From contig NZ_CP036349.1 in NCBI RefSeq assembly GCF_007753265.1, positions 3,443,363 to 3,507,362 of the forward strand: a stretch of 64,000 bases of DNA, given 5' to 3'. The translations under genes were made by a program, and so were the position numbers. Positions 4,168 to 62,326 of this stretch are shown here, one piece after another (the stretch's first letter is position 1; each line of letters starts with the position of its first letter). Under the pieces are notes generated by a model. That model worked only from the letters and a program-made list of their open reading frames with translations, was not told where the DNA came from and did no database searches. Origin of the DNA: Botrimarina mediterranea (GTDB lineage Bacteria; Planctomycetota; Planctomycetia; Pirellulales; Lacipirellulaceae).

Positions 4168-4221
4168 AAGTGACCCCGGCTGGATTCGAACCAGCAACCT
4201 TCGGCTTCGGAGGCCGACGCG
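4168..4221 (-). repeat. Left attachment site: orphan 3' part of tRNA-Arg(CCG)
   Basis: This 54-bp stretch is identical to 62273-62326. From 4171 to 4221 (minus strand) it carries the anticodon arm with CCG, variable loop, T arm and 3' acceptor strand of tRNA-Arg, then stops; beyond 4222 the sequence does not continue the tRNA. That is what remains at the distal end after site-specific integration into a tRNA 3' end. Confidence 0.9.
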
Positions 4222-4353
4222 ATCGCAGACTAACTCCGATGAGGCTCTCTTCGTAAGTTGTTTATAGGCCTTGCCTTAGCGACCACCGCAGACAACTGCC
4301 GTTCGTCCGACGATTGGCGAATAATACCCGGTTTTGCCCGGCTTTGTACGGGG

Positions 4354-4376
4354 TACCGTGACAGATACCGTGACAA
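4354..4376. repeat. Tandem TACCGTGACA motif, left-end arm-like site
   Basis: TACCGTGACA occurs at 4354-4363 and again at 4366-4375, a 12-bp period. The same pair with the same period occurs at the other end of the element (62206-62215 and 62218-62227). Short direct repeats just inside both ends are the expected form of integrase arm-type or Xis binding sites. The function is inferred. Confidence 0.6.
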
Positions 4377-4531
4377 GGCCAGATAGCATCGGCTGCAGAG
4401 CCAACGGTCACCGGGGTGGCCTGCCAAGCTAGCCCCCCTGATTTGACTCGGTACAGGAACTTGTCCTACTGGCAAGCCAACAAGTCGAGCTGTGACCACT
4501 GCATTGCGAAGGTAGGACACGCCTCATGACG

Positions 4532-4563
4532 AAATGCGTAAATGCGTAAATGCGTAAATGCTT
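4532..4563. repeat. 8-bp tandem repeat AAATGCGT
   Basis: Three perfect copies of AAATGCGT (4532-4555) are followed by a fourth imperfect copy ending TT. It lies in the 520-bp gene-free stretch between the left att site and the transposase remnant. No role is evident. Confidence 0.7.
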
Positions 4564-4669
4564 GATACCATGGCGGTTGCGTCGAGCAAGAGTTGTCGCT
4601 AATTCGTCGCAACTCCCATATTTTCGATCTTACGAATGGATTCCGGGTATGTTCCGGGGACCTTATGCT

Positions 4670-4698
4670 GAGGGGATTTCGTACCCAATTCTGTACCC
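4670..4698 (+). repeat. Direct repeat flanking the IS4-type remnant, left copy
   Basis: This 29-bp stretch matches 5775-5803 at 23 of 29 positions in the same orientation. Each copy contains two TTYYGTRCC-like units 12 bp apart, resembling in design the tandem motif at the element ends. It may be an arm site of another, decayed integrative element. Confidence 0.4.
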
Positions 4699-4741
4699 AG
4701 CACCGCACTTTACCGTAGAAGGTCGCCCTAGGCAGTACGGA

Positions 4742-5635
4742 CATTCACAGCAGATCGACGAGGAGGGCGTCCGCTGGCTGGAGAACCTCGAGCAGTCGAC
4801 GCGGCTGGCGAGCCCCGATCGCTTGGTGCACATCGGCGACCGGGAGAGCGACATCTACGAGCTGTTCTGCCTTGCGAAGGAGCAGCAGACGCACTTCCTC
4901 GTGCGGACGTGCGTCGATCGTCGCGCCGGGACGGGCAAGACGACGATCGCCCGGAAGATGCAGCGCGAGCCGATCCACGGGACGCACGTCGTCGAAGTCC
5001 TCGACGCCAAGCACCGGCCGATCGAGGTCGAACTGCAACTGCGGTTCAGCGAGATGACGGTCCACCCGCCGATCGGCAAGCACACGAAATACCCGCCGCT
5101 GTCGCTCACCGTGATCCACGCCCGGGAGCGAGGCAAGCCGGAGGGCCGCAAGCCGATCTGCTGGAAGCTGCTCACCGACCTGCCGGTCGAGAGCCTGGAG
5201 TCAGCCGGCGAGAAGCTCGACTGGTACGCGCAGCGGTGGAAAGTCGAGACCTTTCACAAGGTGCTCAAGTCGGGCTGCCGCGCCGAAGACGCCAAGCTGC
5301 GTACCGCCGAGCGGCTCACCAACTTGATCGCCGTCTTCTGCATCATCGCGTGGAGGGTGTTTTGGCTGACGATGGTCAATCGAACTAATCCGAAAACATC
5401 CGCCGACACGGTGTTTACGGAGACCGAGATCGCGATCCTGAATCATGTGGCAGGCGATTCCGAGCCACCACCGAAGAACGTTGCTCACTACCTGCTGGTC
5501 GTCGCCAAACTGGGCGGCTACCTCGCCCGCAAGAACGACGGCCCGCCGGGGAACGCGGTGATGTGGCGTGGGCTATCACGCCTGACCGATATCCACCTGG
5601 GCGTCGAGATCGGCAAGGGAATTGTGGGGAATTGA
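4742..5635 (+). pseudogene. IS4-family (IS50/Tn5-like) transposase, N-terminally truncated
   Basis: Recognisable transposase sequence starts around HSQQIDEEGVRWL and runs to the stop. GDRESDIYELF fits the second catalytic Asp region of IS4 transposases. YAQRWKVETFHKVLK fits the family YREK signature (Y-2-R-3-E-6-K), which supplies the catalytic Glu. The frame can be opened from 4550, but the first 60 or so residues do not look like transposase, and the DNA-binding domain and first catalytic Asp are missing. About 300 residues remain against roughly 450-480 in full Tn5-like enzymes, so it is probably inactive. No inverted repeats were identified around it. Confidence 0.8.
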
Positions 5636-5837: not shown

Positions 5838-7412
5838 CTATTCCGAGAACTGGCAGACTGGTTTCCCGCGAAACGTAGAAGAGAATGCGGCGGCTGCGGC
5901 TATCGTTAGGACCGCCGCGCTCGGCTCCGGTACGGGCCGGCCGTAGAAGATGTAGACGGCGCCTTCGCTTAAGCGGACCGTATCCGATGCGTGAGCGCCG
6001 AGGACGATGTCCGCCAAACCGTCCCCGTTGAGATCGCCCGTGGAATCGACGGCGGAGCCGATGAAGTCGCGGTACCCACCGATGAACACCGCGTCGGCGT
6101 TGTCGAGATCGTAAACGGCCTCGTCGAGCACGCCGCCGCGTCGCCCGTAGACGAGGTAGGTTTTTCCGCCTTGCTGCCCGTCAGCGTAATCGTTGGGGTC
6201 TCCCTGGGCCTGGTAGGCCCCGATCAACAGGTCGTCGATCCCGTCCCCGTTAACGTCGCCTGCGGACGACACCTGATAGCCTGCTTTATCCCCCTCGGCC
6301 ACTCCCTCGAAGCGGACGTCCGCGTTGTCGAGGTCGATCTCGCCGCGCCACGCGTTGTCGCCCGCCTTGCCGTAGAGCAGGTAGGCGGCGCCCGACTCTT
6401 CTCCGTTGTAATCCATGTCGGACGCCCCGATGACGAGGTCGTTGAGTCCGTCACCGTTCAGGTCGCCTGCGGTCGACAGCGAACGGCCGGCGCCGTAGAC
6501 GCTGAACACCGCGTCGGCCTCGCCCCGGCCGATCCGGCCCGCGATGCGCTCGGAGGTTGGCCGGCCGTAGTAGAGATAGACCTCGCCCTGACCGAGGGCG
6601 CCGATCGCTACGTCGTCGAGCCCATCGCCATTGAGGTCGCCGGCAGATGAGACGGAGTAGCCCAGGGTGCCGTCCCTAAAGTCGACATCGAAAGTGGCGT
6701 CTGCGCTTGCTATGTCGATCCCCCCCGAGAGGGACGCGTCCGGGTTTCCGTAGAACAAATAGGCTCTTCCCGGGTAGCCACTGCCGTAGGTGTAGTCGCC
6801 GATCAACAGATCGGCGGCTCCGTCGCCGTCGATGTCGCCGGCCGGGGTGAGGCCAACCGGCCCGGGGTCCGACGACCGTTCGAGAACAAAGGTCGCATCC
6901 GAATCGGACAGCTGGAATTCGCCCGTAAGTTGGTTGGCGTCGGGACGCCCATAGACCAAGTAGACCTTGTTCCGCTCGCTGAAGTCCGCCGTTGCGATCA
7001 AGAGGTCGTCAAGGCCGTCGAGGTTGAGGTCGCCTGCGGATGAGACCCGGTACCCCGCATGCTGCCCCTCTATACCGACAAAGTGAACGTCGGCGTCCAT
7101 CGGCGACAACGTTCTCTGGCCGTTACCTGTCTCGGCGCCGCCGTAGAGCAAGAACGTCTCACCGGAGAACTGAGAGTTCGGCGGAGCGTTCGGCGCGCTG
7201 AAAAGGAAATCGTCGAAACCATCGCCGTTGAAATCTCCTGCCGAGGAGACCGAGAAACCAACACGCCCCAAATAGGCGGTTCCCAAGAACGCGATGTCGG
7301 CGTCGTCCATCAGGTAATCGCCGCTCAGTTGCTGGGCCGTAACAGAGAGCGGCGTCGAGACCGCCGCTGCAAGACAAGCTGCCACGCTTGCCGCATGCTG
7401 AACAAACTTCAT
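5838..7412 (-). CDS. FG-GAP repeat protein with PEP-CTERM-like tail
   Basis: The protein has 524 residues from MKFVQHAASVAACLAAAVS, a clear signal peptide. I chose this Met over the one at 7466 because GAGAGGGA lies just upstream of it. Seven FG-GAP-type calcium-binding blades can be counted (DFNGDGFDDF, DLNLDGLDDL, DIDGDGAADL, DLNGDGLDDV, DLNGDGLNDL, DVNGDGIDDL, DLNGDGLADI), consistent with a seven-bladed integrin-like propeller. The end reads VPEPSAAVLTIAAAAAF then STFRGKPVCQFSE: a PEP motif and hydrophobic stretch, but without the usual Arg cluster directly at the end. It is probably exported and exosortase-processed. It lies near the left end of the element, downstream of the RHS locus on the same strand. 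Ligand unknown. Confidence 0.82.
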   Translation of the reverse strand: MKFVQHAASVAACLAAAVSTPLSVTAQQLSGDYLMDDADIAFLGTAYLGRVGFSVSSAGDFNGDGFDDFLFSAPNAPPNSQFSGETFLLYGGAETGNGQRTLSPMDADVHFVGIEGQHAGYRVSSAGDLNLDGLDDLLIATADFSERNKVYLVYGRPDANQLTGEFQLSDSDATFVLERSSDPGPVGLTPAGDIDGDGAADLLIGDYTYGSGYPGRAYLFYGNPDASLSGGIDIASADATFDVDFRDGTLGYSVSSAGDLNGDGLDDVAIGALGQGEVYLYYGRPTSERIAGRIGRGEADAVFSVYGAGRSLSTAGDLNGDGLNDLVIGASDMDYNGEESGAAYLLYGKAGDNAWRGEIDLDNADVRFEGVAEGDKAGYQVSSAGDVNGDGIDDLLIGAYQAQGDPNDYADGQQGGKTYLVYGRRGGVLDEAVYDLDNADAVFIGGYRDFIGSAVDSTGDLNGDGLADIVLGAHASDTVRLSEGAVYIFYGRPVPEPSAAVLTIAAAAAFSSTFRGKPVCQFSE

Positions 7413-7534
7413 GAGGTCCCTCTCGGTGTTGGTGTAGTAGTCTCTCGTTTTGGAGACCAGCCTCACTGCTATCCGCCTGCGCCATGCTGCCCCAATCTAC
7501 CACCATCGATTCAAGTAGGTGATGTGATGCGCAG

Positions 7535-8194
7535 TCAAATATATTTTCCATCTAGTTCGAAATCGACAATGGCCTCTACTGCAATACCTCTAACCAACTC
7601 GCAGGTTATGGTGTGCTTTGCATTTCCACCTTTCGTCGAAACACATACCCCCAATATCGGCTGGCCGTCACGCTCTATCCAAGAGTGCATCCCGTCCCCA
7701 GTGTTTCGCGATGTCAAAAACTCCTCCGTTAATTGCTGACACTTATCAATCAGCAACTCACCCAAACACTCTTGCTTTAAGATTAGCATCCAGCCGGTAC
7801 CAGTTGACACTTCGTGCTTGCAGATCCTAGGCACCCCCTCAGGCACAGCGTGTCTATGCAGCCTAATCGCGCTAACGCACTCTTGTTCGTGCCGAAGGCC
7901 CTTGAGGACCTCGACATCGTAGACGCCATCAAACTGGCCAATAGACACACATTTAGTCAACGACCAGTCATCTGCAACGAGCAGCTTGGATGGCGTGCAA
8001 AAATGGAGCTGCTTACGCCCTCCTTCAACTTCAACAAACGGCTGTCGTCGGTAACGCGACAGCGTTGCTTTTTCAGTTAGCCACGCGGTCAGCAACAAGG
8101 CCAACCCAATAACAAGGGCAGGCCCTCTAATGTCGGGAAGCACTGCCCCCGCACACATCACAGCAACCGCTGCGGCAAGCAATGCATTGGTCAA
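7535..8194 (-). CDS. Small membrane protein coupled to RHS gene; candidate immunity protein
   Basis: The reading frame can be opened from 8365, but that would overlap the RHS 3' end by more than 170 bp. A TTG at 8194-8192 overlaps the RHS stop codon as TTGA and is preceded by GGAG at a 7-nt spacing, so I use it; this gives 219 residues (LTNALLAAAVAVMCAGAV...). Two hydrophobic helices (about residues 3-40) are followed by a soluble domain of about 170 residues that I do not recognise. A cognate immunity gene directly after a polymorphic toxin tip is the standard arrangement, and this region is visibly lower in GC, like the tip. The immunity role is an inference from position, not homology. It could instead be an unrelated accessory membrane protein. 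Confidence 0.6.
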   Translation of the reverse strand: MTNALLAAAVAVMCAGAVLPDIRGPALVIGLALLLTAWLTEKATLSRYRRQPFVEVEGGRKQLHFCTPSKLLVADDWSLTKCVSIGQFDGVYDVEVLKGLRHEQECVSAIRLHRHAVPEGVPRICKHEVSTGTGWMLILKQECLGELLIDKCQQLTEEFLTSRNTGDGMHSWIERDGQPILGVCVSTKGGNAKHTITCELVRGIAVEAIVDFELDGKYI

Positions 8195-11100
8195 TGCTCG
8201 TCTCCAAAGAGCATGGGGGCGACATACTCGCCGCCAACCCAGTGACCAGTGTAGCCGGCAGTCGCAGATGAACCGACTACAAAAGTCCTGAACGCCAAAC
8301 GCTTTGCAAAGCTTTGCCCTAGACTTGAGTTGAAGCTGCGTGAGATCAGCAAGCCGCTGTTCCACCCGGAATTGCCAAACCCCCTCATTGCCGATGGGAC
8401 TGAATTGTCAAATGAACGTTGCATTATGAATAAATGCTCAAAAGTTTGTCCGCTTGCCCCTCCCCTGCTGGCCCTGACAGCATCGAAATTCCTGTTGTCA
8501 AAAAAGAAGCGTTCGAGTGCAGATGGCTCGCGTGTTAGGTAGTTTCCACTTACGCCACCCTTGTACTGCACCCAAGCCTCAGAAAGGTCGCTTCGTGAGA
8601 ATCTCCCTGCATTTACTTTCCTAAACTGCTGCCAACTCAGTTCGTTAGCAGCTCTGGGACCTGGCAGCAGCGCCTTCCCTACTTGCCCTCCCGCCAGCAT
8701 GCCTCCGATCAAATCGTATCCAACTTCCGCATAATCACCAACCGCACTGCTGCCCGACAGTGAAGCCGCAGAATAGTTGACGAAGCTCCCGCCGATCGAG
8801 GACACATTGCCCCCATTGTAACCTTGGCGCAGACCAGCCTGAAACTGATCCGTCAGGAACACTATCGCGCCTCCCGTAAGGGGGGTAATGGTCCCGCCGG
8901 TCATCGCAGTTGCGTACGTAAGAATCCCCAATGGGACTGCGGCGCCGACCGCCCTTGCGATGCCGCCGAAATTGTCGGTCATGAAAACCGACTCTGGCAG
9001 GTCAGGACTGTATGGGGCCATGGCGTAAGTTGCGACGTCGGACCCAAAGTACTGGCCAAGGATCCTACTCTTGGCCGAAGCCCTCGCGCTAGCTCTCGAT
9101 GCCGTGAGGTAGTCGATGTAGCTTTCGGTGTTAGCTATTCTTTCGCTGACACTTGGCCCATACGTTGGGACACCGCCATGCGTTCCGCCACTCGGCCGCT
9201 CCCTGACAATTTGATTTGATTGGTAGGGTAGGAATCGCCGAAGATGTTCAGCCGTCCCCTTTAAGGATGCTACTTCCCGATCGACACCAATCACTTCGGG
9301 TGAATACCCAGTGAGGAGGTTGGCATCGAGATACGAGTATGCCGGGATGGGGTTGAATGGAATAACTCCAAATGCGGAATACTCGTCGTTGAATGAGTGG
9401 TACTCAAAGCTAGCGAGTGAGAGTGAGTCTGCAAGAAAACTCTCAAATGAAATGCCGGCTAGATAATAATCACTCCAGATGCTGTTCCCGGCGAACCAGC
9501 TATCACTCGCGAAGTTGATATCATCCTCGTAGAGCCCCGTCGGGTCGCGACCGTTCACCGAGTCGCCACCCGCGTAGCGGTACAGGTTGGCGTCGCCCCC
9601 CGCAAACCCTGCCGGGTCCTCACTGATAAAGCGACCTTGGCTGGCGTCGTACCAGCGAGCCCGGTTGTAGTAGAGGTCGGCGTCGGCGTCCCACTCGCGG
9701 CCTGCGAAGGCGGCGTCGATCGCCAGCTCCCTCCGTAGGACGCTTGCGTTGTTGTCGTTGATGTCCTCCTTGTACGGGTCGATCTGCAGTTGGATTTCGC
9801 CGTAGGCGTCGTACTCCAGGTGGTTGATCAGGTCGTGGGTGTTTTGGAGCACGTCGCGGACGGTCCCGGCGTGGTCGGCGGCCGCCCAGAAGAGCTCGTT
9901 GACGGTTTGGCCGTCGTAGCCCCCGATGCGGAACACCTCGTCGAACAGGGCTGCGTCCACGCCCGGGCCGTTCTGGACGCGACGCTGGAAGTGGCTGTCG
10001 GAATTGGGGACGTCGCGTCCGTTCGTCACGTCCGTCCAGTCGCCGTCGAGAACCGCGGCGAGCTGGTCGCCGTTGTAGACGTAGTGCTCGACCGATTCGA
10101 GCTCTTGGTCGCCGACAAAGATCGCTTTGCGGGTACGGAGGTCGTCGGTGTTGTAGCGGTACTCAATCCGCTTCTGGACAACCCCACCGTCGCTGTCGCT
10201 GACAACCACTTCGATCAAGTGGTTCCGGTTGTCCCAGAAGTACTCGGTGTACTCCCCGGACTTGGAGCGTGTCTTGAGATTGCCCTCGTTGTCGTAGGTG
10301 TAGGCGTACTCGCTGTCGCTGGCGACTTGGTTGTGGGTCAGCGTCGACAGGTCCTGGCCGTTGTCCCCGCGGTTGCCGGCCGCGTCGAGGCTGTACGGCG
10401 TGTCGATGTCGGGGAGGTCGGTCTCGAGGTTGCGGCTGCCCGGCTTCAGGTCCGCGATCGTCCGTTCCCATTTCGACAGGCGCCCGGCCGTGTCGTAGGT
10501 GAACGTCTCGCTGCGGTCGAGCGACACGTTGGAGTAGCGCGCCGTCCCCTCGACAGCAGCGATACGCGAGGCGTTGTCGTACGCGTAGCTGTAGGTGGCG
10601 AACGCGCCGGTGTCATCGATACGAGCGTGCGTGATCGCGTCGAGGCGGCCGGCGGGGTCGTATCCGTAGTAGGTGCTGAAGTAGAAGTCGTTGTTGTTGT
10701 CGTTGACGCCGGTCGGGTTGATGTCGACGACCGAGAAATTGTCGTTCTTGTCGGCGCGGCGGACGACGCCCGTCATTCGGCCCGCCGCGTCGTAGGCGAA
10801 GTTGATTTCCTTCGCCTTCACCGTGGCGCCTGAAGTCACGACGTCTCTGCTCTCCGATAGACGCACAAGCCTGCCGAGCTTGTCGGTCGCGAACGTCGTC
10901 GTGGCGTAGTTGACGTTGACAAACTCGTTTGGCGGGTTGCTCTGCCTTGGCTCGTATGTGAGGACGTACTCGACCGCATTCAACTCTCCCGTCAGGAGTT
11001 GGGGGATTTGGTCCTGATTGTAGGTTTGGCGAGCCTCGGGGCCGATGCGTCCTCCGTTCGGGTTGTAGTTGTACCGGCCCGTGACACGATCGAGGTCGTC

Positions 11101-14100
11101 GTAGGTGTAGGCGTCGTAGACAAGTGTGTTCCCGGAAGCGAGGGTGGCGTCCGATTGCGCTGCCGCCAAGACGCGGCCCAGCTTGTCGTACTGCCACTCA
11201 AGGGTGTCGGTGTGGACTCCGCCATCGGCTGTATACCAACGTTCGTACCGCAACCGATCAAGATTGTCGTACTCATACGTGACGACACGGCCGTTTCGAT
11301 CGGTGACTTTCTCGAGGTTGCCGCGGCTGTTGTACTCGTACGTGCGGTTGTTGACATAGACATTACCCGTCGTAGCGTTCTCGTCCGTGTCGAAATCTCC
11401 CTGGATCTCCTTGGAGACCCGGCGAAGATTGTCGTACCGGTAGGAAGTCCTGTTGCCGTTCGGGTCGATCACTTGGGTCTGGTCGCCGAGCGCATTGTAC
11501 TTGTAGACCGTGGCGATGCCCAACGAGGCGGCACGCTCCTCGATGACCTGGCCGAAGGTGTTGTACTGGTAGTCGGTCTGCTCGCCCTCCCCGTTGACGT
11601 AGGCCGTCATGTTGCCGGCCTCGTCGTACTCGTATTTTTCCTCCAAAGGACTGGAGTCGGAGTCGAACGGTTTGGGGTCCGCTGCGACCGTCTTGACGAG
11701 GCGGTAGAGCGCGTCGTAAGTGTGAGTTGTCGCGATCCCGGTCGCGTCGACCTCCAGGACGACGTTGCCAACTGCGTCGTAGTGCGTCTCGGTTCTCGCC
11801 GCGACGCCTCCCTCCGCGGCGTCTTCGATCACAGCGGTCGGACGGTCGACGGCGTCGTACTCGTAGGCCGTGACGACTGAGCTGGTCGTTGAGGCGTCAT
11901 CAGCACGGATTATGTAGGTCTCCGACTTCAGGTTGCCGACGTCGTCGTACTCGTACACCGACGAGTGCATGCCCGTGAAGTCGGCGTTGGAGCCATCAAA
12001 CGGCGCCGCGAGGTGTTCCGCCGTGAGGCGGTTCAGGTAGTTGTAGGAGTAGTGAGTCGTGACCGTGGGAGATACCGCGTCGCTCCCTTCAACGAATGCC
12101 CCCGAAGTGCTGTCTTTGAGAACCGCCTCTTTCAGGGCGACTAGGTTTCCGGCCTTGTCGTACTCGTAGACGTTCCTGAGCTTATCCGCGGCGCTCTCGC
12201 TCGCGCCGTTGTTGAAGACCTCAACGGTCAAGCGATTCCGCTGGTCGTATGTGAACTCGTCGTAGCGGAACGCCGGGGCGGAGCCGGTGAGACCGCCAGT
12301 GCGGTAGTCGATTGTGACGACGTTCCCGTAACCGTCGTAATGGTTCCAGTGCTGCAAACGCTGCAAAGGCTCGTCGCCGTCTGGGTCGGCGTAGATCTCC
12401 TTGTAGACGCGGTTCAGCTCGTCATAGGCGTACTGCGTATCGGCGTTGTTGGCGTCGATGATCTTTGTTCGGTTGCCGTTATCGTCGTACTCGTATTTGG
12501 TGATCGCGTCTTGGCCATCGAGAAGCAACACCACTCCATTGATCACGTGTGTCCGTGGCGTCTGCTGCTCACGTAAACGGTTGAGCTCGTCGTAGGAGAA
12601 GTAGGTGGTGTAGCCCCGGGCGTCGGTCGACGCGACCATGTTGCCCACGTCGTCGTAATCGTACGTCTCGAAGGGGGCGACGCCGGCGCCGTCGGGCCCA
12701 TCGGGGTCGGCCCAGCTCTTGCGGGTCAGGCGGCCCCGCGCGTCGTAGAGCGAAGCAACCGCGACGCCGAAGGCGTCGATCGTCGCGACCAGTTGGCCCG
12801 CCTTGTCGAAGAGCGATTGACCCGTCGAGCCCAACGCGTCGGTGGTCGAGACGAGGCGGTTCCGGTCGTCGTAAACGAAAGTCGTCGTGTGGCCGTTCGG
12901 GTCGGTGGTCGAGATGACGTTCCCGACGGCGTCGTAGGCTATCTGGGTCTCGGGGCCGCTCGCCTGACCGCTGTCGGGGTCTGGCAAGACGGTCGTCACC
13001 AGTCGGCCGTATTCGTCGTAGCGATTCTCGGATCGGGCGCCACGTTCGTTCACCGTGTAGCGGACACGGCCCGCGCCGTCGTACTCGACCGAGGTCGTGG
13101 TCCCATCGGCGTAAGTCGTAGCCGTCGGACGGTTGAAGCTATCGTAGGTGAGCGTTGTAAATTCAAACGCTGTCGTGGTCAGGTTACCCGCGTTAGCCGG
13201 TTCCTGTACCCACGCATGCGGATCGTACCCGTTTTCGGCACGCAGCACCTCATCGGGCACGTTGTTATTGCCTGAACGTGTGTCGTAGACGATTGTCTCT
13301 GTCAAGTTCCCATCGGCGTCGTAGGCTCTGGTTTCAACGAATACCGGACGCATCGTCGCCGGTGTCCGCTGAAGAGACCCCGCGTCGAAGTCCCCGGCAT
13401 CCGACTCCGACAGCACCATCGTCCTGACGATGCGGCCGAGATCATCGTAGAAGAACTGGGTGATGTTCTCCTCGCCATCGATCGCCTCGATCAGCTCCCC
13501 CAGCACGTTGTACTTGTTACGAGTGACAACCTGGTGCTCCGTAATGCCGTAGCCGGCGTCGGAAACGGTTTTGACCAAGCGTCCTGCGGCGTCGTAAGTG
13601 AACTCGGTTGTGCGGCCTTCGGCGTCGGTTGTCGCCGCGACACGCCCTGCGCCGTCGTAGCGGATCGTCTCCGAGGCGCCGTCCGCGTAGACCGTGCGCA
13701 CCAGCCGGTTACGGCCGTCGTATTCGAAGTGGGTCTCGCGGCCTAGCTCGTCCCTCATCAGGGTGCGGTTGCCGACGCCATCGTACTCGTGCTCGACGAA
13801 GGTCTCTTCCGCGTACGTGACCTTGGTCACCAGGCCACGCCCGTCGTATTCGGTCAACGTCTCGCGGCCGAGGGTGTCGGTTACCCCTAAGAGCCGACCG
13901 CTTTTGTCGTAAGAGTAGTTGGAGGCAAGGTCGTCGGACGCTCCTCCCTCTTGGATAGACTGACGCAGGCGGCCGAGCACGTCGTAGACCGAGGTCGAGA
14001 CGCGGCCCGAACCATCTGTAACCGAGAGTGGTTGTCCGGTGTGGTGATAGGAGATTATTTGGTTAACAATTCCCCCGGCGGTAACGCTTGTGACCTGCCC

Positions 14101-50287: not shown

Positions 50288-50361
50288 GCGAAGAACACCG
50301 CCCGAGCGACTCCCAAGGATTCTTCACATCTCACCCCTTTCCCCTTAGCCCTAGTAACACT

Positions 50362-50655: not shown

Positions 50656-50658
50656 GCG

Positions 50659-53808: not shown

Positions 53809-54016
53809 CCCTGGTGCGGAGGTCGCCCTGGCCGCCCGTTCTAGCTGTTACCTGTGCGTTGTCTGTTGTTTGTTTGCCTTAAGCCGCTTTTTGGTTTGGG
53901 TGCTCTTTTGAATGTTGTCCCGCCCCGGCCGCTTGCGAGCGTCTGGTGGGGAGCAACAAACCGGTCGTCTTCTCGCTCCCCAAGAGTCAGAGACGACCTA
54001 TCTGAAAGGAGCAACC

Positions 54017-54388: not shown

Positions 54389-54409
54389 CAACAACACCGG
54401 AGTCCGGGT

Positions 54410-54427
54410 CCCTGCCATTTGGCAGGG
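54410..54427 (+). terminator. Hairpin after 54017-54388 gene
   Basis: CCCTGCC-ATTT-GGCAGGG is a perfect 7-bp stem with a tetraloop, extended imperfectly by GGAGTCCGG and its partner. It is followed by TCTTT, a short T-rich stretch. It may terminate or attenuate before the CAP-domain gene. Confidence 0.55.
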
Positions 54428-54453
54428 GCTCGGCTCCTCTTTGGAACTCGACG

Positions 54454-55077: not shown

Positions 55078-55182
55078 GCAGCGCGCCGCACGCCTCGCAA
55101 CCCGCCACTGCCCAACGACTTACCACCACAAACGACTCCCGACCGGCACCCCCACCATCTCGCCGAAACCCCACACCGAACG

Positions 55183-55942
55183 ATGTCGATCTCCAGGCCA
55201 CCGTCAACGTCCAATCGCCGCCGACCGGCGGAGCAGTACGCCGAGCGTGACCGGGCGATGCTGCGGGCGACGCTGCGTTACCAGGTGCTGGTGGCGGCGA
55301 TGGCGTCGGCGAAATTCCTGGAAGGGAAGCAAGCGGGTCACGTCTTGAGGCGGTTCGAGGCAAAGGGGTGGCTTCAGCTAGAGACCGCGGCGATCCCCGG
55401 TGGAGTGACGTACGCGACGCTGACGGCGGTCGGCGCCCGAGAGGTCGGCGTGACCTACCGGCCACGGCCGCTGGGGGCGGCAAGGCTCGACGCGGCGCTG
55501 GCTGTGGCCGGGTTCTGCCTGCTGGACGCCGGAAACGCGAAGAGCCGAACCCGACTCACGCCGCAAGAAGTGAATCGGCTGGACGCCGGGCTGGCGGCCA
55601 ACGTCCCGCATGTGCTGACCGACGAGTTTGCCGCTGCGGGGGGCGGAGAGCCAAGCCTAGTAGTGCTCCGCGTGCTGCTCGCGTCCTCGGGCAAAACCGA
55701 AGCGGGTCGTGGAGAAAGCGGCCGAGGCGTTCCGAAAGGCGGTCGCCAATCCGAAGAGCCGGCCGTGGGTCGAGTCGGGAGACCTGGGGGTAGCGGTCCT
55801 CGGACATACGCCCGAACGGGTCGGTCAGCTCGCCGAAGCGATTAGCGACGATGACCGCTTTCGAGGTGAGCGGGTGGTTGTCGGGCTCGGGCCGACGAGT
55901 GAGTCGCTTGCGGCGGTCTTAAGGCGGGGGTCGGCGTCATGA
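55183..55942 (+). pseudogene. Winged-helix-like hypothetical gene, frameshifted at AAAA run
   Basis: From 55183 the frame reads cleanly (RATLRYQVLVAAMASAKFLEGKQAGHVLRR, then LRVLLASSGKT) until about 55693-55696 (AAAA); past it the frame is GR-rich and implausible. Dropping one base in the run gives LRVLLASSGKPKRVVEKAA..., continuing in the frame of 55709-55942 (VAVLGHTPERVGQLAEAI, then SAS stop). The restored protein has about 252 residues. The stop overlaps the ATPase start (ATGA), supporting continuity of a coupled operon. The N-terminal half resembles a winged-helix domain; otherwise not recognised. It could be an assembly indel in a homopolymer. Confidence 0.6.
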
Positions 55943-57372
55943 TCATCGCTCCCCCGAAGCCGGTACCAGCGAACCACATCCGTTTCGGGATGACCGACAC
56001 GGTCCCCTTGGACCTGTTGCTCGACCAGCTGCGCGAGAAACACTTCGCTATCGCCGGGCCCACGGGCCAGCGCAAGACGCTGTTTGCGTTGTCTGTCTTG
56101 AAGCAGTTTGTCGCCCTGCCCGAGGACGTTTGTGTCTACGTGGACCTGGGCGGCGATCCGGTTGCTTACTGGGTCTTGGCCGACGCGGCCAAGAAGGCGG
56201 ATAAGCCGGTCTACTTCTTCTCGCTCAACAACCTCCACGACACGGTCAGCTGGGACCCGGTGCTAGGAACACCGGCCTACGCGGTCGATACGACGGTCGC
56301 TTCGTCAGGCGTCGCCACGGGTCTTGAGCTGCTGCACGGCTCGGGCTACGGGCGTTCGTTCTACGGCCGGCTTAACCAACGCGAGGTGGACTCCGCCTTC
56401 GACAACCTGATCGCCGCCAAGGGGAGGCTCCCCTCCTTCCCGGAGCTTGTCCGCGAGCTGAGCCGGATGGGGGAAGCGAGCCGCAACGCCAAGCACGTGA
56501 GCGAAGCATTCCTCGCCGCCGAACGCCTGCTCCGTTACGACGCCCTGACCGGCAAACGCCCGCGCAAGCTCGACCTCGGCCAAGCGATCGACGAGGGGGC
56601 GGTCATCTACTTCTACCTGCCGACGGCGCTGCGTGAGGAGGCTTCCCGCTCGGTCGCCTCGATGCTCATGCGCGCCGTGATGGCCCAGTGCGAGCACCGC
56701 TGCGAGGAGGGGCTCCCCAAACGCTACGTTCACCTCGGAGTCGATGAGTACCCGCAGGTCGCCGCCTCCCGTGGCGCCGTCGATAGCGCGATGGTGCTCG
56801 CTAGGAAGTGGTCGCTCACTATCTGGGCTATTTTTCAGGACGACACGCAGCTCGTCACCCCCGAAGGAGACCTTCGCTCGATTATCCGCAGCCAGTGCCA
56901 ACGCATCTTGTTCGCCCGCGAGTCGGAGGAAGAGATCAAGGAACTCCGCGAACGGAGCCGCGATGTGCTGCGAGACGACACGAGCCAGTCCCTGCGTGGT
57001 CTCTCTCACTCCACCTCCGTTCGGCAAGTGCTCGAACCGGCGATAAGCCGCAACGACGTGCTCGAACTCTCCGGCGTCGCGATGCGGGCCTACGCCGTGC
57101 TCCGACTGGGCGACAAGCACCGCGATCCGATCCCCTTCACGATCATCCCCCCCACGGCCTCGCCCGCCGAACACGACCTTCTTAAGCGCAAGAAGCTCCC
57201 CCGCTATACGCCCGCAAGTGGCGCAGCGCCGGCCGAGCCAACAACCGACCCCCTCACCCTTCGGCAGGCCGAGCGACGCAAGCGGCTGCAAGACCTGCAC
57301 CATCAGGTACGGGTCGAGTTGTCGTGGCGGCTGCGGAGCGACTCCCCCTCGTCGTCGGAGGGCGCCGTATGA
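55939..57372 (+). CDS. P-loop ATPase, VirD4/HerA-like
   Basis: The protein has 477 residues. Walker A reads GPTGQRKT (about residue 41-48) and Walker B is VHLGVDEYPQVA. The later segment SLTIWAIFQDDTQL is typical of VirD4/TraG/HerA motor ATPases (IFQD-type). No membrane helix is seen, unlike the coupling protein at 38821. It is the second ATPase of this type in the element. Its neighbours on both sides overlap by ATGA, tying it to the winged-helix gene and the next protein. A DNA-moving or protein-moving role is likely, but the substrate is unknown. Confidence 0.78.
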   Translation: MIIAPPKPVPANHIRFGMTDTVPLDLLLDQLREKHFAIAGPTGQRKTLFALSVLKQFVALPEDVCVYVDLGGDPVAYWVLADAAKKADKPVYFFSLNNLHDTVSWDPVLGTPAYAVDTTVASSGVATGLELLHGSGYGRSFYGRLNQREVDSAFDNLIAAKGRLPSFPELVRELSRMGEASRNAKHVSEAFLAAERLLRYDALTGKRPRKLDLGQAIDEGAVIYFYLPTALREEASRSVASMLMRAVMAQCEHRCEEGLPKRYVHLGVDEYPQVAASRGAVDSAMVLARKWSLTIWAIFQDDTQLVTPEGDLRSIIRSQCQRILFARESEEEIKELRERSRDVLRDDTSQSLRGLSHSTSVRQVLEPAISRNDVLELSGVAMRAYAVLRLGDKHRDPIPFTIIPPTASPAEHDLLKRKKLPRYTPASGAAPAEPTTDPLTLRQAERRKRLQDLHHQVRVELSWRLRSDSPSSSEGAV

Positions 57373-58208
57373 CCCCTCGCCACCAGTACGCCGCATGCGC
57401 CCGCTGCACGGTCAAGCTGTTCGCCCCCCAACCGGTCGATGCGTGTCCGCGGTGCGGCTGGCCAATGCTCGCCGCGTCCGACGTGCGACCGCCGTGGGAT
57501 GGTCGGGCGGCGCGCGGTGGCGGTCGAAGCATTCTAAGTCCGCGCCACAGCGCGCGTTGCGACTTGCGCGCTGCGCTCGACGACCAGAAAGACGGTTCCC
57601 CGCCCATGCGACCCGAAGCACAAGCCCTCATCGAAACGCTTGCGAGACGTTGCCGTGTGCTTACCATCCATCAGGCCGCCGCGGCGTTCTACGGCGGTCG
57701 GCGGCGGCCGGTCGAGTCGGCTTACAGCGCGGTGCAAACCCTCCAGAAGCACGGCCTGGTGAGCACGTTGCGGGGCAGCCTCGGCGTTGTTGACCCCGTG
57801 GCGCCGCTGCTGCGTTGGGGGTTGACCGATGGTAAGCCCAACCTAGCCACCATCGCCTGGGCAAACGAGCGACGTTGGCGAGACGCCAAGCCGCGACCGA
57901 CGCTCTGCGTGTTCGCGACCGACAAAGGACGGCTCGCGTTTGGCGGCGCCTGCCGCCCGTCCCGCGACCATGAGCGGGAGCACGACTTGGCGGTTGCGGC
58001 GGTCTACCTGCAACTGCTCGGTAGCGTCGGTGTCGCCGCGTGGCGCCACGAAGACGCCTTCCCGCCCCGTGCGGGCGAGCGTCCCGACGCGACTTATGAG
58101 CGCGATGGCGAAACGGTCACCGTCGAGGTGCTCGGCCGCGGCTACACGCGACAGAAGATCGAAGCGGTCTGGCGGGCCTACCGCGATGGCCCGCTCGAAC
58201 TCTGGTGA
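57369..58208 (+). CDS. Zinc-ribbon/winged-helix protein, replication-relaxation-like
   Basis: The protein has 279 residues from the ATGA overlap; an internal Met at 57606 is an alternative start. N-terminal zinc ribbon: CARCTVKLF and CPRCGWPML. Next a winged-helix-like region (TLARRCRVLTIHQAAAAFYGG, AYSAVQTLQKHGLV). The C-terminal half (HDLAVAAVYLQLLG, EDAFPP, RPDATYERDG, VTVEVLGRGYTRQKIEAVW) follows the Replic_Relax-type pattern, whose PD...VE residues resemble a PD-(D/E)XK nuclease core. Possible DNA-binding or nuclease partner of the upstream ATPase. The assignment is by remembered pattern. Confidence 0.6.
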   Translation: MTPRHQYAACARCTVKLFAPQPVDACPRCGWPMLAASDVRPPWDGRAARGGGRSILSPRHSARCDLRAALDDQKDGSPPMRPEAQALIETLARRCRVLTIHQAAAAFYGGRRRPVESAYSAVQTLQKHGLVSTLRGSLGVVDPVAPLLRWGLTDGKPNLATIAWANERRWRDAKPRPTLCVFATDKGRLAFGGACRPSRDHEREHDLAVAAVYLQLLGSVGVAAWRHEDAFPPRAGERPDATYERDGETVTVEVLGRGYTRQKIEAVWRAYRDGPLELW

Positions 58209-58328
58209 GGTGTTTTATCCGGCTCTGTGAGGCGCGCTCACCGACCGGCATAACGCGTGCGGGCTTCCAGGACTTCTTGACCGTGGTCGAGTCGTTCCTT
58301 GCGCCCGCCAATATTAAGAGGACTGACT

Positions 58329-58499
58329 ATGAGCACAAACCAAGGAAAAAAGCGAACCCCACACCCCCGTGTGCGGCTTCTGTTGATGGCGTTTGGAGTC
58401 GGCGACGTTCTTATCGGACTCGCCCGGCTGCCCGACGAGCTGATGCGTGAAGCGGTTCTTGGGGTGGGGCGGCTGCTCGCACAGTGCCTCCCCTGGTGA
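58329..58499 (+). CDS. Hypothetical small protein
   Basis: The protein has 56 residues from MSTNQGKKRTPHPRVRLLLM, with AAGAGGA before the ATG. The basic N-terminus and hydrophobic middle (VRLLLMAFGVGDVLIGLARL) may form a short membrane or amphipathic helix. No family recognised. Confidence 0.5.
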   Translation: MSTNQGKKRTPHPRVRLLLMAFGVGDVLIGLARLPDELMREAVLGVGRLLAQCLPW

Positions 58500-58804
58500 C
58501 TGGGCCGCGGCCTGGTCGCTTCCCCTACTCCCCATCGTCCCAAGTCACTGCGGTGGCTTGGGCGACGGGGCCCTACGGGGGGACGAGAACCCTCACAACG
58601 TCTTCTTCGTGAGACACAACGCACCACAACCGAGCCTGAGTAACGCCGGACACCAGTCGGTCGTTTGGACTTGGTGGTAACGACCGCCCGCGGAGCGTCG
58701 GGCAACCCCTTCCCCCAAAAGCCAAACTCGCAACTACCCCAAACCGACAGGAGGAGCGTCACGCCGCTGGAGGCGCCCCCCACCCTTCGCTGACCAACGA
58801 CCCC
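58500..58804. other. Intergenic stretch, about 300 bp
   Basis: No gene supported. An open frame crosses it but has no convincing start or composition. GGAGGAGCG at about 58750 lies too far from the next start (58805) to be its ribosome-binding site unless a different start is used. Confidence 0.4.
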
Positions 58805-59227
58805 ATGCCGATTCCGCCCAACGAGCGATTCACGACGCCTCTCGGCGCCCTACCTGAACGAGAAATCCTTACGATGCCCCCGAAGCCGAAACCGACCCGT
58901 ATCCGCTGGATGTCGATGCCGCTGAACGACACAAACGCTGAGCGTCAACCCGACCGCGTCGTCATCGACGGCGTGCTGACGCTCTTCGACTCGGGCGCCG
59001 TGGTGATCGGCAACCGCTGGTTCCGCGGCAACTGGTTGCTTGGCCGTTGGGGCGCCGAGCCGATCGACTACACCTTCCCCGGCGGCCACGCGCATCGGGA
59101 CCGTCACAGCCAGCGGCTCGTGGTCCGCACGGGCGGCCCCAACCGGCAGGCGCTGGTGTACGAGTTCTCGGGGCTAACGCCTTTACTGGCCGGAGCGTGG
59201 CGCCGCTGCGTGCCGCAGTACCTCTAG
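58805..59227 (+). CDS. Hypothetical protein
   Basis: The protein has 140 residues from 58805, with an alternative start at 58874 (MPPKPKPTRIRW). Beta-rich core (VVIDGVLTLFDSGAVVIGNRWFRGNWLLGRW), then basic and glycine-rich segments. No membrane helix. No family recognised. Confidence 0.5.
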   Translation: MPIPPNERFTTPLGALPEREILTMPPKPKPTRIRWMSMPLNDTNAERQPDRVVIDGVLTLFDSGAVVIGNRWFRGNWLLGRWGAEPIDYTFPGGHAHRDRHSQRLVVRTGGPNRQALVYEFSGLTPLLAGAWRRCVPQYL

Positions 59228-59410
59228 CCCGATCCGCTAACCAAGGAGTTTTGTTCGGTGACGCCCGTGTTGGTTTTTCTGCCTGTCGCGTTCTCGCTCT
59301 TGTCTCCCCAAGCCTTGGCCCTTTGCGTTCTTACGTCTGGGGCGAGGGAGTTGGGCAAGGCGGCCGCCTCCCCTCGGTGGACTACGGGCCGCCAAAAGGA
59401 CAGAACGCTT

Positions 59411-60265
59411 ATGACCAGACAACCAACCGCTTCACGACTCCGGGTGCTCCGAACGGGGGACCCGCAGTCGATGTTTCACTACCACAACCCCAAGGAGATC
59501 CTTGAGCGACTGGGGCCGCCGTGGCGGCTCTTGTCGTCGTCCGCCAAGACCGAAAAGTCCCGCGGCGTGGGGGTGCTCTCGCGGGTGCTCTATCTCACGC
59601 CCGGGGTCTTCTGCCCCCGGGCGACGGAGGGTTGCCTCCGGGTCTGCCTGGGGCATGCGTCGGGGCGGATGACGATGCTGCAATCGGCCAACGCCCGCGA
59701 CCGCCGCACGGCGCTCTACGCCGAAGACCAGGAGCACTTCCTGGACCTTCTTCGCTGCGACTTGCGGCTGCTCAGGGAAGACGCGCGACGGGAAGGGATG
59801 ACTCCCGCCGTTCGGCTCAACGGAACAAGCGACATCCCGTGGGAGACTTTGCATGGTGAACTGTTTGCCGAATTCGATGACCTCGAATTCTACGACTACA
59901 CCAAAGTCCCCTCGCGGGTCCGCCAGTTCCTCTTGGGCCGACGGGGCCTATCCGACTTCCCGGCCAACTACCACCTCACGTTTTCGCACAGCGAGACCAA
60001 CGCGGCCGAGGCCCGTTCTCTGCTGGACGAGGGCGCCGGGGTGGCGGTCGTCTTCTGGCCGAGTCTGCCCGAGACCTACGGGACTTTCCCCGTGGTCGAC
60101 GCTGACAAGCACGACGCGCGGTTCCTCGACGACGAGCAAGTTCCCACAAGGGGCGGCTACATCGTGGGGCTCCGCGCCAAGGGGATCGCCCGGGAAGACC
60201 TCTCGGGGTTTGTGGTGCAACGGGCCGGCGAGCCGGTCTACCTGAAACGAGGCGCAGCGGCGTGA
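59411..60265 (+). CDS. Phage Gp88/DUF7227-like protein
   Basis: The protein has 284 residues from MTRQPTASRLRVLRTGD; upstream frame to 59258 lacks support. The core FCPRATEGCLRVCLGH with nearby Cys, HASGRMTMLQSANARDRRTALYA, LNGTSDIPWE and a hydrophobic YVVFW-type strand fits the Gp88-type phage protein pattern (CPGA...C..CY ... R...N ... iR...GD). Such genes occur on phages and plasmids; their function is not established. A cysteine pair in the core could bind a metal. A hairpin follows the stop. Confidence 0.65.
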   Translation: MTRQPTASRLRVLRTGDPQSMFHYHNPKEILERLGPPWRLLSSSAKTEKSRGVGVLSRVLYLTPGVFCPRATEGCLRVCLGHASGRMTMLQSANARDRRTALYAEDQEHFLDLLRCDLRLLREDARREGMTPAVRLNGTSDIPWETLHGELFAEFDDLEFYDYTKVPSRVRQFLLGRRGLSDFPANYHLTFSHSETNAAEARSLLDEGAGVAVVFWPSLPETYGTFPVVDADKHDARFLDDEQVPTRGGYIVGLRAKGIAREDLSGFVVQRAGEPVYLKRGAAA

Positions 60266-60272: not shown

Positions 60273-60307
60273 GGGGGAGGGATTTCTGCTAAGGGGCTCC
60301 CTCCCCC
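60273..60307 (+). terminator. Hairpin after the Gp88-like gene
   Basis: GGGGGAGGGA (60273-60282) pairs perfectly with TCCCTCCCCC (60298-60307) across a 15-nt loop. No T-run follows, so termination would be weak or factor-assisted. It marks the end of the plus-strand run. Confidence 0.5.
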
Positions 60308-60688
60308 ACCTTTCAACTAATCCCTGCAAGCAACAGGAGCGTAACGACAAGCCCCTCAAATTTCGGCAACGGACCAAGTTTGTTTCTGGCGGTCTCTCTT
60401 CCGACCCCGCTTCAAGCGGACGCCCTCCGGATCACGCCCGACCAGAGCGATTCGTGACCGTCCAGTGAGGGGTGGGCTTGTCACCCCCGAAGCGAGCGCC
60501 GCGTAACGCGGCCTCGTCTCCCTTTTGAACCAACCCCAACAGAGTTTTCGGTAAGCCCCTCCGCCGTCGCCCTCGCCTCGGCCCTTCACCTCCGGCTGAG
60601 GGCCGTGGCGAGGGCAGAGGCGCGAGGGGCGGCGTCCCCTCTGTCGAGCCCGAGCGGAGGTTCGGTACGACTTCCAACCCAATCGTTA
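60308..60688. other. Gene-free stretch before excisionase-like gene
   Basis: About 380 bp with no supported gene. It is GC-rich and contains short open frames without starts. It probably includes the promoter of the excisionase-like gene. Confidence 0.45.
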
Positions 60689-60919
60689 ATGAACACGGTC
60701 CGCGCAACCGCCGAGAAGCTAGGCGTTTCTGAGAAGACCGTACGCGGATTGATTCAGGCCGGGCGTATAGAGCACCACCGGGTCGGCTTGGGACGCGGGG
60801 TCATCCGCATCACCGATCAGGCCATCTCCGACTATTTGCAGAGCACTCGGGTCGGCCTCTCTGAATCGAGTGCTTCCGACCGCCAACCCCGTCAACGGCT
60901 CAAGCACCTCAAGCTCTAG
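60689..60919 (+). CDS. Excisionase-like HTH protein
   Basis: The protein has 76 residues from MNTVRATAEKLGVSEKTVRG; a longer frame from 60605 is less likely. VRATAEKLGVSEKTVRGLIQAGRIEHHRVGLGRG and VIRITDQAISDYL follow the MerR/excisionase-type winged helix (HTH_17) pattern. Its 3' end overlaps the integrase 3' end by 11 bp, tail to tail. Placed between the transfer module and the integrase, it is the natural candidate for a recombination directionality factor that binds near the end and drives excision. Confidence 0.75.
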   Translation: MNTVRATAEKLGVSEKTVRGLIQAGRIEHHRVGLGRGVIRITDQAISDYLQSTRVGLSESSASDRQPRQRLKHLKL

Positions 60920-62084
60920 CCGTCGCCCGCTTGGCTTCGGCCAGCATGAACTTCGGGTTCTTTGAGACGTGCTGGTAGGTCTTCGCGAGCGTCGAGGGGT
61001 CCGAATGCCCCATCAGTTCCGCCACCGTCACCGAATTGACACCCCGCTGCAACGCGTTGGTCGCCCACGTATGTCGAAGAGCGTACAGCGAGTACCGGGG
61101 GACGAGCGTGGCCGCCAACCGCTTGGTGAGCTTCTGACGCGCCTCGGTCCGAAGCTCGGCTGGCCGCTTCTCCCGCAGCACGCCCTTCTCCATCTTCGTC
61201 TTCTTGAGCGTCTGGACAAACGCCTCGACCTCGTCGTCCGGCACGGTGACGCCCCGCTCGGCCATCACCGCCTTGCCCATCCGCTGACGAATCCGGTCGA
61301 ATGCGCAGTTGACCGTGTCGGCTGTCCAAGGTCTGCCGCTGCTGTTGCAAAACAGATTCCCTACGGGGTGGCTGAGCATCAGCTTGCGGGTGATGAAGAG
61401 CGCCTCGTCGGTCAGGTAGACGACCCGGGCACACCGCTCGCCTTTCGTCTCGCTCGCCGGGATGATCCAGCGCTGGTTCTCCAGGTCAACGTGGCTCGCC
61501 CGGACGATGAGCGATTCCTGGGGGCGACAGCCGGTTTCCCAAGTCACCGTGATGAGGTCCTTGAGCGAGTCGGGGCTCGCGAACCGGAGCAGTTCGATGT
61601 ACTCGGCGTCGGTCAGGCAGACCTCGCGGCTCTCGGCCCCCGGGAGTTCCAGGTCTTCGATGGGGTTCGTGTCGATGTAGCCCATCTTCTTGGCCCACCG
61701 CACGCACCGCTTGACGGCCCGCATGTGGTTCCGCCGCGAGTTCTTCGAGAGGTGACCGTAGCCGTCGACCCACTTCTGGACATGGAACGGCCTGAGCTGG
61801 TCGATGCGGAGGTTCGGGTGCAGCGAGCAGAACTTTTGCAGCAGGTCGCGGTAGAAGGCGAAAGTCGCCTCGGCGTTGTTCTTCGCGACGAAGTCCAGGA
61901 AGTCGTCGGCGGTCCCGGCAAACAACTTGCCGCTGACCTGACGCCGCTCTTTCGGCTGTGTCATCAGCCGATGGAACTCGGCGTACGCGTCGTCTTTGTC
62001 TGTGCCAAGCGCGTACTGCTTGCCCTCGATGGTGACCCACCACCCCCGGCCCTTGCGCAACCAGGGCTTCGGTTTCTTCGGCAT
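60909..62084 (-). CDS. int: Tyrosine-type integrase of the element
   Basis: The protein has 391 residues from MPKKPKPWLRKGRGWW, with GGAGGG before the ATG; a start at 62117 is less supported. N-terminal DNA-binding region, core-binding domain (HLSKNSRRNHMRAVKRCVRW) and catalytic domain: Arg in TWETGCRPQESL, the basic ETKGERCARVV segment, YALRHTWATNA (the first His of box II replaced by Tyr), and GHSDPSTLAKTYQHV with the nucleophilic Tyr. It is transcribed away from the tRNA and sits about 190 bp from it, with the arm-like repeats between. It should catalyse integration into and excision from tRNA-Arg(CCG). Confidence 0.93.
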   Translation of the reverse strand: MPKKPKPWLRKGRGWWVTIEGKQYALGTDKDDAYAEFHRLMTQPKERRQVSGKLFAGTADDFLDFVAKNNAEATFAFYRDLLQKFCSLHPNLRIDQLRPFHVQKWVDGYGHLSKNSRRNHMRAVKRCVRWAKKMGYIDTNPIEDLELPGAESREVCLTDAEYIELLRFASPDSLKDLITVTWETGCRPQESLIVRASHVDLENQRWIIPASETKGERCARVVYLTDEALFITRKLMLSHPVGNLFCNSSGRPWTADTVNCAFDRIRQRMGKAVMAERGVTVPDDEVEAFVQTLKKTKMEKGVLREKRPAELRTEARQKLTKRLAATLVPRYSLYALRHTWATNALQRGVNSVTVAELMGHSDPSTLAKTYQHVSKNPKFMLAEAKRATARA

Positions 62085-62204
62085 CTCGCAAACCCTCCAG
62101 TCGGAAACTAGGTCCAACGGAGCGAACCGCAGGGTTTGCTTCAGCCGGGGGCTTGGGTGAGCGGCAACTCACCTGAGCCCCCATCCTATTGCCTGAGCAA
62201 CGGG

Positions 62205-62227
62205 ATACCGTGACAAATACCGTGACA
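62205..62227. repeat. Tandem ATACCGTGACA motif, right-end arm-like site
   Basis: ATACCGTGACA occurs at 62205-62215 and 62217-62227, a 12-bp period, between the integrase start and the tRNA. The core TACCGTGACA pair matches the one at 4354-4375 in sequence, orientation and spacing. Likely integrase or Xis binding sites; function inferred. Confidence 0.6.
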
Positions 62228-62272
62228 ACTCGAAAAGAGAAAAACGACCGTCGTCGTAAGTCTTTTGGTAGC

Positions 62273-62326
62273 AAGTGACCCCGGCTGGATTCGAACCAGC
62301 AACCTTCGGCTTCGGAGGCCGACGCG
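62273..62326 (-). repeat. Right attachment site within tRNA-Arg(CCG)
   Basis: This 54-bp copy is identical to 4168-4221. It spans the 3' part of the tRNA gene, from the anticodon arm to three bases beyond the discriminator. The tRNA 5' part continues only here, so this end keeps the functional tRNA. Confidence 0.9.

Follow-up and report, generated by a model that had tools for sequence, protein, structure and literature searches.

A 58-kb stretch of the chromosome of the marine bacterium Botrimarina mediterranea Spa11, bounded by 54-bp repeats at a tRNA-Arg(CCG) gene, appears to be an integrative and mobilizable element (IME) with a plasmid backbone, a reading given a probability of roughly 0.8. 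It lies in a window of 64,000 nucleotides (the whole stretch of DNA analysed, positions 3443363 to 3507362 of a single-contig genome of 5,871,207 bp), and coordinates are those of the window unless a contig or another genome is named. Two further copies of its backbone occur in the same genome and are called here the tRNA-Met element and the tRNA-Arg(ACG) element. The boundaries and the integration module of the window element are as follows.

4168 to 4221, no strand: attL (left attachment site), an orphan 54-bp copy of the tRNA-Arg(CCG) 3' end, exact match to 62273 to 62326
4354 to 4375, plus strand: candidate integrase arm sites, left, two TACCGTGACA in tandem with a period of 12
60605 to 60919, plus strand: Xis-like HTH_17 protein (PF12728)
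60909 to 62117, minus strand: tRNA-targeting tyrosine integrase (PF00589, E 3.6e-19)
62206 to 62227, plus strand: candidate integrase arm sites, right, two TACCGTGACA in tandem, the same pair as at the left end
62273 to 62326, no strand: attR (right attachment site), the 54-bp repeat within the intact tRNA gene
62275 to 62349, minus strand: tRNA-Arg(CCG), the integration target (ARAGORN)

The two copies of the perfect direct repeat start 58,105 bp apart and constitute a repeat family of two in the window, and the first-pass annotation was right to join an orphan tRNA 3' fragment to an intact tRNA-Arg(CCG) gene, the sole tRNA that ARAGORN finds in the window, and to place the integrase and the Xis-like gene at the tRNA end of the element. 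Elsewhere in the whole genome the tRNA part of the repeat matches just two diverged tRNA genes (82% and 74%, E 0.001), and in the 120 kb to the left of the window its matches are at chance level only. The pair TACCGTGACA-NN-TACCGTGACA occurs twice in the window, just inside each end of the element, and never in 100 shuffles; the exact 10-mer stands at four places, all within the two pairs (shuffle mean 0.07). With one mismatch allowed, six places are found against a shuffle mean of 2.58, which is not unusual (7 of 100 shuffles reach six). The tandem pairs fit integrase arm sites, a role that they may have.

Between the repeats, read from right to left, the integration module (60.6 to 62.3 kb) is followed by a block of mostly unknown genes (50 to 60 kb), by ArdC, XerD-like and PIN-domain genes (42 to 47 kb), by the coupling protein and MOBF relaxase (36 to 40 kb), by an exonuclease and a single-strand binding protein, and then by Rep, iterons and ParA (28 to 31 kb).

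28133 to 28585, minus strand: small protein overlapping parA, a partition partner by position alone, 58% identical in the tRNA-Met element and in family genome G018
28578 to 29294, minus strand: ParA-type ATPase (AAA_31, MipZ, CbiA)
29799 to 29939, plus strand: five iterons, candidate replication origin, the motif recurring before Rep in relatives
30062 to 31459, plus strand: replication initiator (Rep) of the RPA family (PF10134, E 4e-13)
33887 to 34336, minus strand: single-strand binding protein, SSB (PF00436)
34399 to 34734, minus strand: conserved backbone protein, function unassigned, 45-80% in four other elements
34766 to 35383, minus strand: exonuclease, RNase_T (PF00929)
35630 to 35659, plus strand: predicted origin of transfer (oriT), a short inverted repeat and then GCACGGGTGTGG
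36046 to 36339, plus strand: small conserved protein preceding the relaxase, from its position a candidate relaxosome factor, with counterparts in six other elements (36-89%)
36281 to 38821, plus strand: MOBF relaxase-helicase (TrwC, 5e-60; NCBIfam MobF, 204.9 bits against a cut-off of 100)
38821 to 40449, plus strand: TrwB-type coupling protein (PF10412, 1.8e-37)
42571 to 43191, plus strand: PIN-domain toxin candidate (PF13470)
44040 to 45134, plus strand: second tyrosine recombinase, XerD-like (PF00589), putatively for multimer resolution
45739 to 46848, minus strand: ArdC-type antirestriction protein (PF08401)
47296 to 49188, minus strand: serine/threonine protein kinase (PF00069)
50659 to 51405, plus strand: VWA-like protein (PF00092, E 0.006, under the cut-off)
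54454 to 55077, plus strand: CAP-domain protein (PF00188)
55939 to 57372, plus strand: P-loop ATPase that looks TraG/HerA-like by eye, related to proteins of three other elements (27-64%) and without a convincing Pfam family
57324 to 58208, plus strand: Replication-relaxation-like protein (PF13814, E 2.8e-4, under the cut-off)
59258 to 60265, plus strand: GP88-family protein (PF17338, 3.1e-37)

All of the backbone functions named in the first-pass annotation (ParA, iterons, Rep, SSB, relaxase, coupling ATPase and ArdC) are thus present between the repeats; of the toxin-antitoxin pair that it also named, the PIN toxin was found, and the antitoxin partner is weak (E 0.021, under its cut-off). 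The relaxase residues Y37, Y38, Y49, Y50, H192, H194 and K488 are invariant across four aligned sequences and match the tyrosine pairs, histidine cluster and helicase Walker A that are taken here to be the MOBF motif set. The predicted structure of the P-loop ATPase (mean predicted local distance difference test score, pLDDT, of 47) was not used as evidence. Among the open reading frames (ORFs) scanned, no capsid, portal or terminase was found by Pfam, nor in 10 proteins compared with PHROGs. The gene content includes an integrase with attachment repeats at a fixed target and a relaxase with a predicted oriT, and no mating pore of its own was recognised, as is characteristic of an IME. A mating-pore system such as an integrative and conjugative element (ICE) would carry was not found, distant forms of which could be missed. 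The Rep protein and iteron origin are those of a plasmid; the element sits in the 5.87-Mb contig and is not seen as an extrachromosomal molecule, a transient free form being possible.

By tblastn of the window ORFs, the region from 28133 to 60265 recurs, inverted and colinear, at 2244-2276 kb of the same genome, in the tRNA-Met element (ParA 86%, Rep 76%, SSB 82%, relaxase 71%, GP88 81% and XerD 82% identical). This element spans contig positions 2222151 to about 2311241, starting with tRNA-Met(CAT) itself (2222151-2222225), and has an integrase ORF (PF00589) that begins 48 bp behind the tRNA and a far end marked at 2311218 by a perfect 21-base copy from the anticodon region. It differs from the window element in its integrase (no tblastn match to the window integrase at E 1e-5), in its 21-bp core in the anticodon region, in being the first unit of an apparent tandem array, and in carrying Wadjet and, by eye, metal-transport genes. 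A whole-genome search located further copies of the 21-base core at 2421536, 2428849, 2444520, 2445051 (imperfect) and 2470772; behind two of these stand relatives of the tRNA-Met integrase (53-54%). Along contig positions 2222151-2472050 there are six copies of the core beyond the tRNA, one of them imperfect, and three related integrases directly behind a copy or the tRNA. The site resembles a tandem array some 250 kb long, of which the units between copies were partly read; further core copies in a row would explain why no tRNA 3' half follows the copy at 2311218. The Wadjet type I system JetABCD (contig positions 2302754-2309533; L078, L195) lies within the tRNA-Met element and is thus an anti-plasmid system on a plasmid-like element. 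To the right of the backbone, at 2279-2296 kb, are genes resembling ABC transport, RND efflux and P-type ATPase genes by eye, perhaps for metal resistance as on the plasmid pK2D_1 of the same species.

The third backbone, the tRNA-Arg(ACG) element, occupies 58.2 kb (contig positions 1704030-1762266) between tRNA-Arg(ACG) and 23 bp that repeat the 5' end of that tRNA exactly, and has its own integrase. It shares with the window element the layout of tRNA and copy, the oriT motif, and Rep (46%), relaxase (54%), coupling protein (50%) and ArdC (66%), and differs in its insertion at the tRNA 5' end with a 23-bp core, in its integrase (25%) and ParA (26%), in its cargo, and in its lack of an XerD-like gene detectable at E 1e-5. 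The iteron motif of the window is common, by eye, to the tRNA-Met element and G018, where it likewise stands upstream of Rep, and repeats related to it precede Rep of the tRNA-Arg(ACG) element. Because the same backbone stands at two other tRNA genes with different integrases, the integration module looks exchangeable. Across the three copies Rep (46-76% identical to that of the window) and relaxase (54-71%) are clearly related, whereas the integrase is 25% identical or has no match, which suggests that the backbone and the integration module probably have different histories.

The target tRNA was searched for in 58 relatives as well as in the genome itself, flanks of about 10 kb were read in three congeners (G001 to G003), and 120 kb were read to the left. 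The gene that adjoins the distal end of the tRNA-Arg(ACG) element in Spa11 stands side by side with tRNA-Arg(ACG) and tRNA-Met in G001, and the joined flanks of the element from Spa11 align through this junction (421 of 560 positions). G001 is therefore the one congener of the three in which the exact site of the tRNA-Arg(ACG) element is seen empty; a search within 1.5 kb of the gene that flanks its far end yielded no tRNA in G002 or G003. The first-pass annotation had proposed comparison with a relative that lacks the insertion, and this comparison revealed an empty site for the tRNA-Arg(ACG) element but none that is clean for the window element. The 5' flank of tRNA-Arg(CCG) is syntenic in G001 and G003, but the relative that had been expected, in which the region upstream of a cytochrome gene would continue into tRNA-Arg(CCG), was not found, and the search of the three congeners for a full-length relative of the cytochrome gene found none. 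The left flank was considered as a second element and rejected: it has no integrase profile match and no tRNA copy, and looks like ordinary chromosome.

Of the 19 relaxase upstream regions examined, seven have a 12-base motif, GCAC(G/A)GGTGTG(G/T), 659-797 bp ahead of the aligned start of the relaxase: those of the window, the two other copies in the genome, G034, G018, one of two in G202, and Stieleria sedimenti L106. Exactly these seven regions precede relaxases that share 45% identity or more with the window relaxase. The motif was not found in the other 12, among which L112 carries the looser GGGTGTGA and L110 gave just 332 bp. In the window a short inverted repeat adjoins the motif, and GGGTGTGG in the predicted oriT resembles the nick site of plasmid F. 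Two adjacent relaxase and coupling-protein sets of different clades are present in G202 (contig C1, 1478-1493 kb), one with the motif and the other without.

The cycle suggested by these genes, in which excision, replication and transfer are read from sequence, would begin with the integrase recombining a 54-bp core common to the 3' end of tRNA-Arg(CCG) and the circular form, as the repeat and the intact tRNA indicate; because this core is shared, the tRNA gene stays intact. The integrase and the Xis-like protein may excise a circle of about 58.1 kb, which would replicate from the iterons by means of Rep and be partitioned by ParA, all of whose parts are present. The MOBF relaxase would nick the predicted oriT, the element's own coupling protein would bring the strand to the mating pore of another element, and the element would re-integrate in the recipient. 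Profiles of VirB4 and F-type TraC, which may miss distant forms, had no match in the genome, and the lack of a mating-pore ATPase match suggests that the element is mobilizable rather than conjugative and would need a helper. Among 43 genomes of the family (Lacipirellulaceae) weak matches were obtained in eight (VirB4) and two (TraC), none over the cut-off; the VirB4 profile also responded to 8 of 14 controls, once over the cut-off.

RPA-family Rep genes were identified at 19 places in 11 of the 43 family genomes, Spa11 included (E 1e-20). Thirteen loci were examined, comprising 12 of the 19 and one in G202 (the remaining seven are in G026, G185, G025, G028 and G189); that of G014 is on a 168-kb contig and the others are on contigs of at least 1.6 Mb. 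Seven of the 13 have a tRNA or transfer-messenger RNA (tmRNA) gene (or its copy) on one side and a partial copy on the other: the three elements of Spa11, two loci of G034 (at 3788 kb, tRNA-Pro with 48 bp exact, 143 kb; at 6080 kb, tmRNA with just 84% over 37 bp), and two loci of G017 within a tRNA-Leu array with copies of 57-64 bp. This array (contig C1, 4240916-4368202) consists of tRNA-Leu(CAA) and four partial copies over 127 kb, with an RPA Rep gene in two of its units. No such tRNA pair was found within the 60-160 kb read around the other six loci (two in G034, and those of G018, G202, G014 and G008); the Rep gene of G202 comes 15 kb after the end of a tRNA-Pro copy, and that of G008 is 40 kb from a tRNA-Ser gene that has a recombinase next to it but no copy. 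In the order as a whole, relatives of the window Rep at E 1e-60 occur in 4 of 396 genomes, Spa11 included, and the relaxase has relatives in 13 of the 396, with scoring of two candidates in each genome. At least 6 of the 32 integrase places listed are 150-190 bp from a tRNA place. Adjoining tRNA-Pro(GGG) of Spa11 (contig positions 29219-30550) is an integrase 31% identical to that of the window, and 10 kb off lies a partial copy of the tRNA (15 of 16) that is no better than chance (E 0.23); this is possibly another small element. Compared with 72,556 plasmid records, the window Rep matches 21, at no more than 34% identity, and no DNA nearly identical to 28100-40500 was found in them.

The left 24 kb of the element (4.2 to 28 kb) is mostly cargo.

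4550 to 5635, plus strand: Tn5-type transposase (PF02281, PF01609)
5838 to 7466, minus strand: FG-GAP repeat protein (PF01839)
8191 to 25953, minus strand: giant ORF of 5,920 amino acids with beta-helix, FG-GAP and RHS repeats
26570 to 27655, plus strand: transposase with a DDE_3 domain (PF13358), presumably IS630-like

The giant ORF accounts for almost one third of the element, and ORFs 23-26% similar to it are found near the G018 backbone and at the tRNA-Arg site of G017. It is probably the one gene over 15 kb that the accessible part of PMC7717034 lists for Spa11. A 178-bp direct repeat, 78% identical, links the end of the DDE_3 transposase gene (27491-27668) to the region after the coupling protein (40546-40723) and is a probable insertion sequence remnant.

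Several observations weigh against an IME. The DNA is silent on excision and transfer at the present day, the stem of the predicted oriT (DNA fold) is no better than those of shuffled sequences, and the G+C content of the element (0.619) is scarcely different from that of its flanks (0.639 and 0.653). At tRNA-Arg(CCG), none of the three congeners has the 3' neighbourhood of the window element, which is left without a clean empty site; the gene that adjoins this tRNA on its 3' side in G002 is 71 kb to the left of attL in Spa11, the intervening 71 kb being ordinary-looking chromosome, tmRNA included, and a rearrangement is likely. The 54-bp repeat is all that marks the left boundary. In addition, the free plasmid pK2D_1, although from the same species, is just weakly similar (Rep 30%, relaxase 27%).

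A single past integration of a plasmid that has since become a fixed, decaying and immobile part of the chromosome would account for the host-like base composition and for the transposases that have entered the cargo, but it is unlikely, as the integrase, Xis-like protein, Rep, relaxase and coupling protein are all open frames and the attachment copies are identical over their full 54 bp. A self-transmissible ICE, with a mating apparatus too divergent for recognition encoded in 49955-60265 and including the P-loop ATPase, is improbable. The tRNA-Met element has a counterpart of this block (33-81%), five of the block genes turn up beside a further Rep gene of G034 (4245 kb), the ATPase is related across four elements, the window element has its own coupling protein, and the profiles used may miss distant forms of mating-pore proteins. 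Yet six of the nine tabled block genes were not found in the tRNA-Arg(ACG) element and the G034 element at 3788 kb, and the G018 and G202 regions yielded none of the nine, although all four keep the relaxase and the coupling protein; Pfam and PHROGs scans of the block genes gave no mating-pore family, in keeping with the lack of VirB4 and TraC matches.

Equally, there is little to recommend a composite in which an older island with the giant gene (4.2 to 28 kb) was later joined at the same site by a plasmid element (28 to 62 kb): the tRNA-Met copy does match 28133-60265 only, and the cargo has a lower G+C content (0.602) than the backbone (0.631), but accretion would leave a third attachment-like copy, of which none above chance occurs between 4222 and 62272, and the arm-like repeats are located at the two outer extremities. 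Misassembly of a free circular plasmid, which 54 bp of identity to the tRNA gene could have joined to the chromosome, is highly improbable in a single-contig genome for which the accessible passages of PMC11588811 give the same length and list no plasmid, and with the same layout at two more tRNA genes, one of them with a matching empty site in a congener. An IME, as the first-pass annotation had proposed, accords best with the arm-like repeats, the recurring colinear backbone and the missing mating-pore ATPase.

That a strain reported to lack plasmids carries three such elements suggests that plasmids of this group can hide in the chromosome. Bythopirellula goksoeyrii Pr1d (presumably genome G034), like Spa11, is listed without a plasmid in the accessible passages of PMC11588811. 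A tentative generalization, held at somewhat less than even odds, is that the Lacipirellulaceae possess a line of integrative plasmids in which a backbone of iteron replicon, partition and MOBF genes swaps tRNA-specific integrases, that related and probably incompatible replicons coexist at different tRNA genes, that strains recorded as plasmid-free carry chromosomal plasmid-type Rep genes (three in Spa11, four in Pr1d), and that Wadjet could favour integration. There is a precedent for an anti-plasmid system that favours integration in ApsAB of E. coli, according to the available portion of PMC11096173; a causal link from the Wadjet system of the tRNA-Met element to the integrated state is speculation. 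Whether integration lets related iteron replicons coexist is a testable question. Should plasmid replicons be common in tRNA genes, surveys of plasmids would overlook them, and giant, defence and metal-transport cargo genes would be mobile. Little literature on gene exchange in Planctomycetota was found in the open literature searched, where such elements in this phylum are not described at the level of titles and abstracts.

The closest free counterpart, pK2D_1 (CP036351), a 70-kb MOBF plasmid of Botrimarina mediterranea K2D, likewise has an RPA Rep, ParA, MOBF relaxase, XerD and ArdC (63%), and differs in being free and in that the oriT motif of the window clade was not found upstream of its relaxase. 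The passages available from PMC12824646 deal with conjugative MOBF plasmids; a report of a MOBF IME later than 2017 may exist. IMEs with a site-specific integrase and a relaxase but no pore of their own, some with Rep or partition genes, are known, such as IncP islands and SGI1 (PMC5704250), and the window element resembles these in its site-specific integrase and in mobilization without its own pore. As far as the accessible sections of that 2017 review go, the known canonical IMEs use relaxases of the MobP, MobQ, MobV or MobC families, with no case of MobF or MobH, and a VirD4 of their own is named just for two putative streptococcal IMEs with MobC (PMC5704250). The window element differs from them in pairing a MOBF relaxase with its own coupling protein, a combination absent from those sections.

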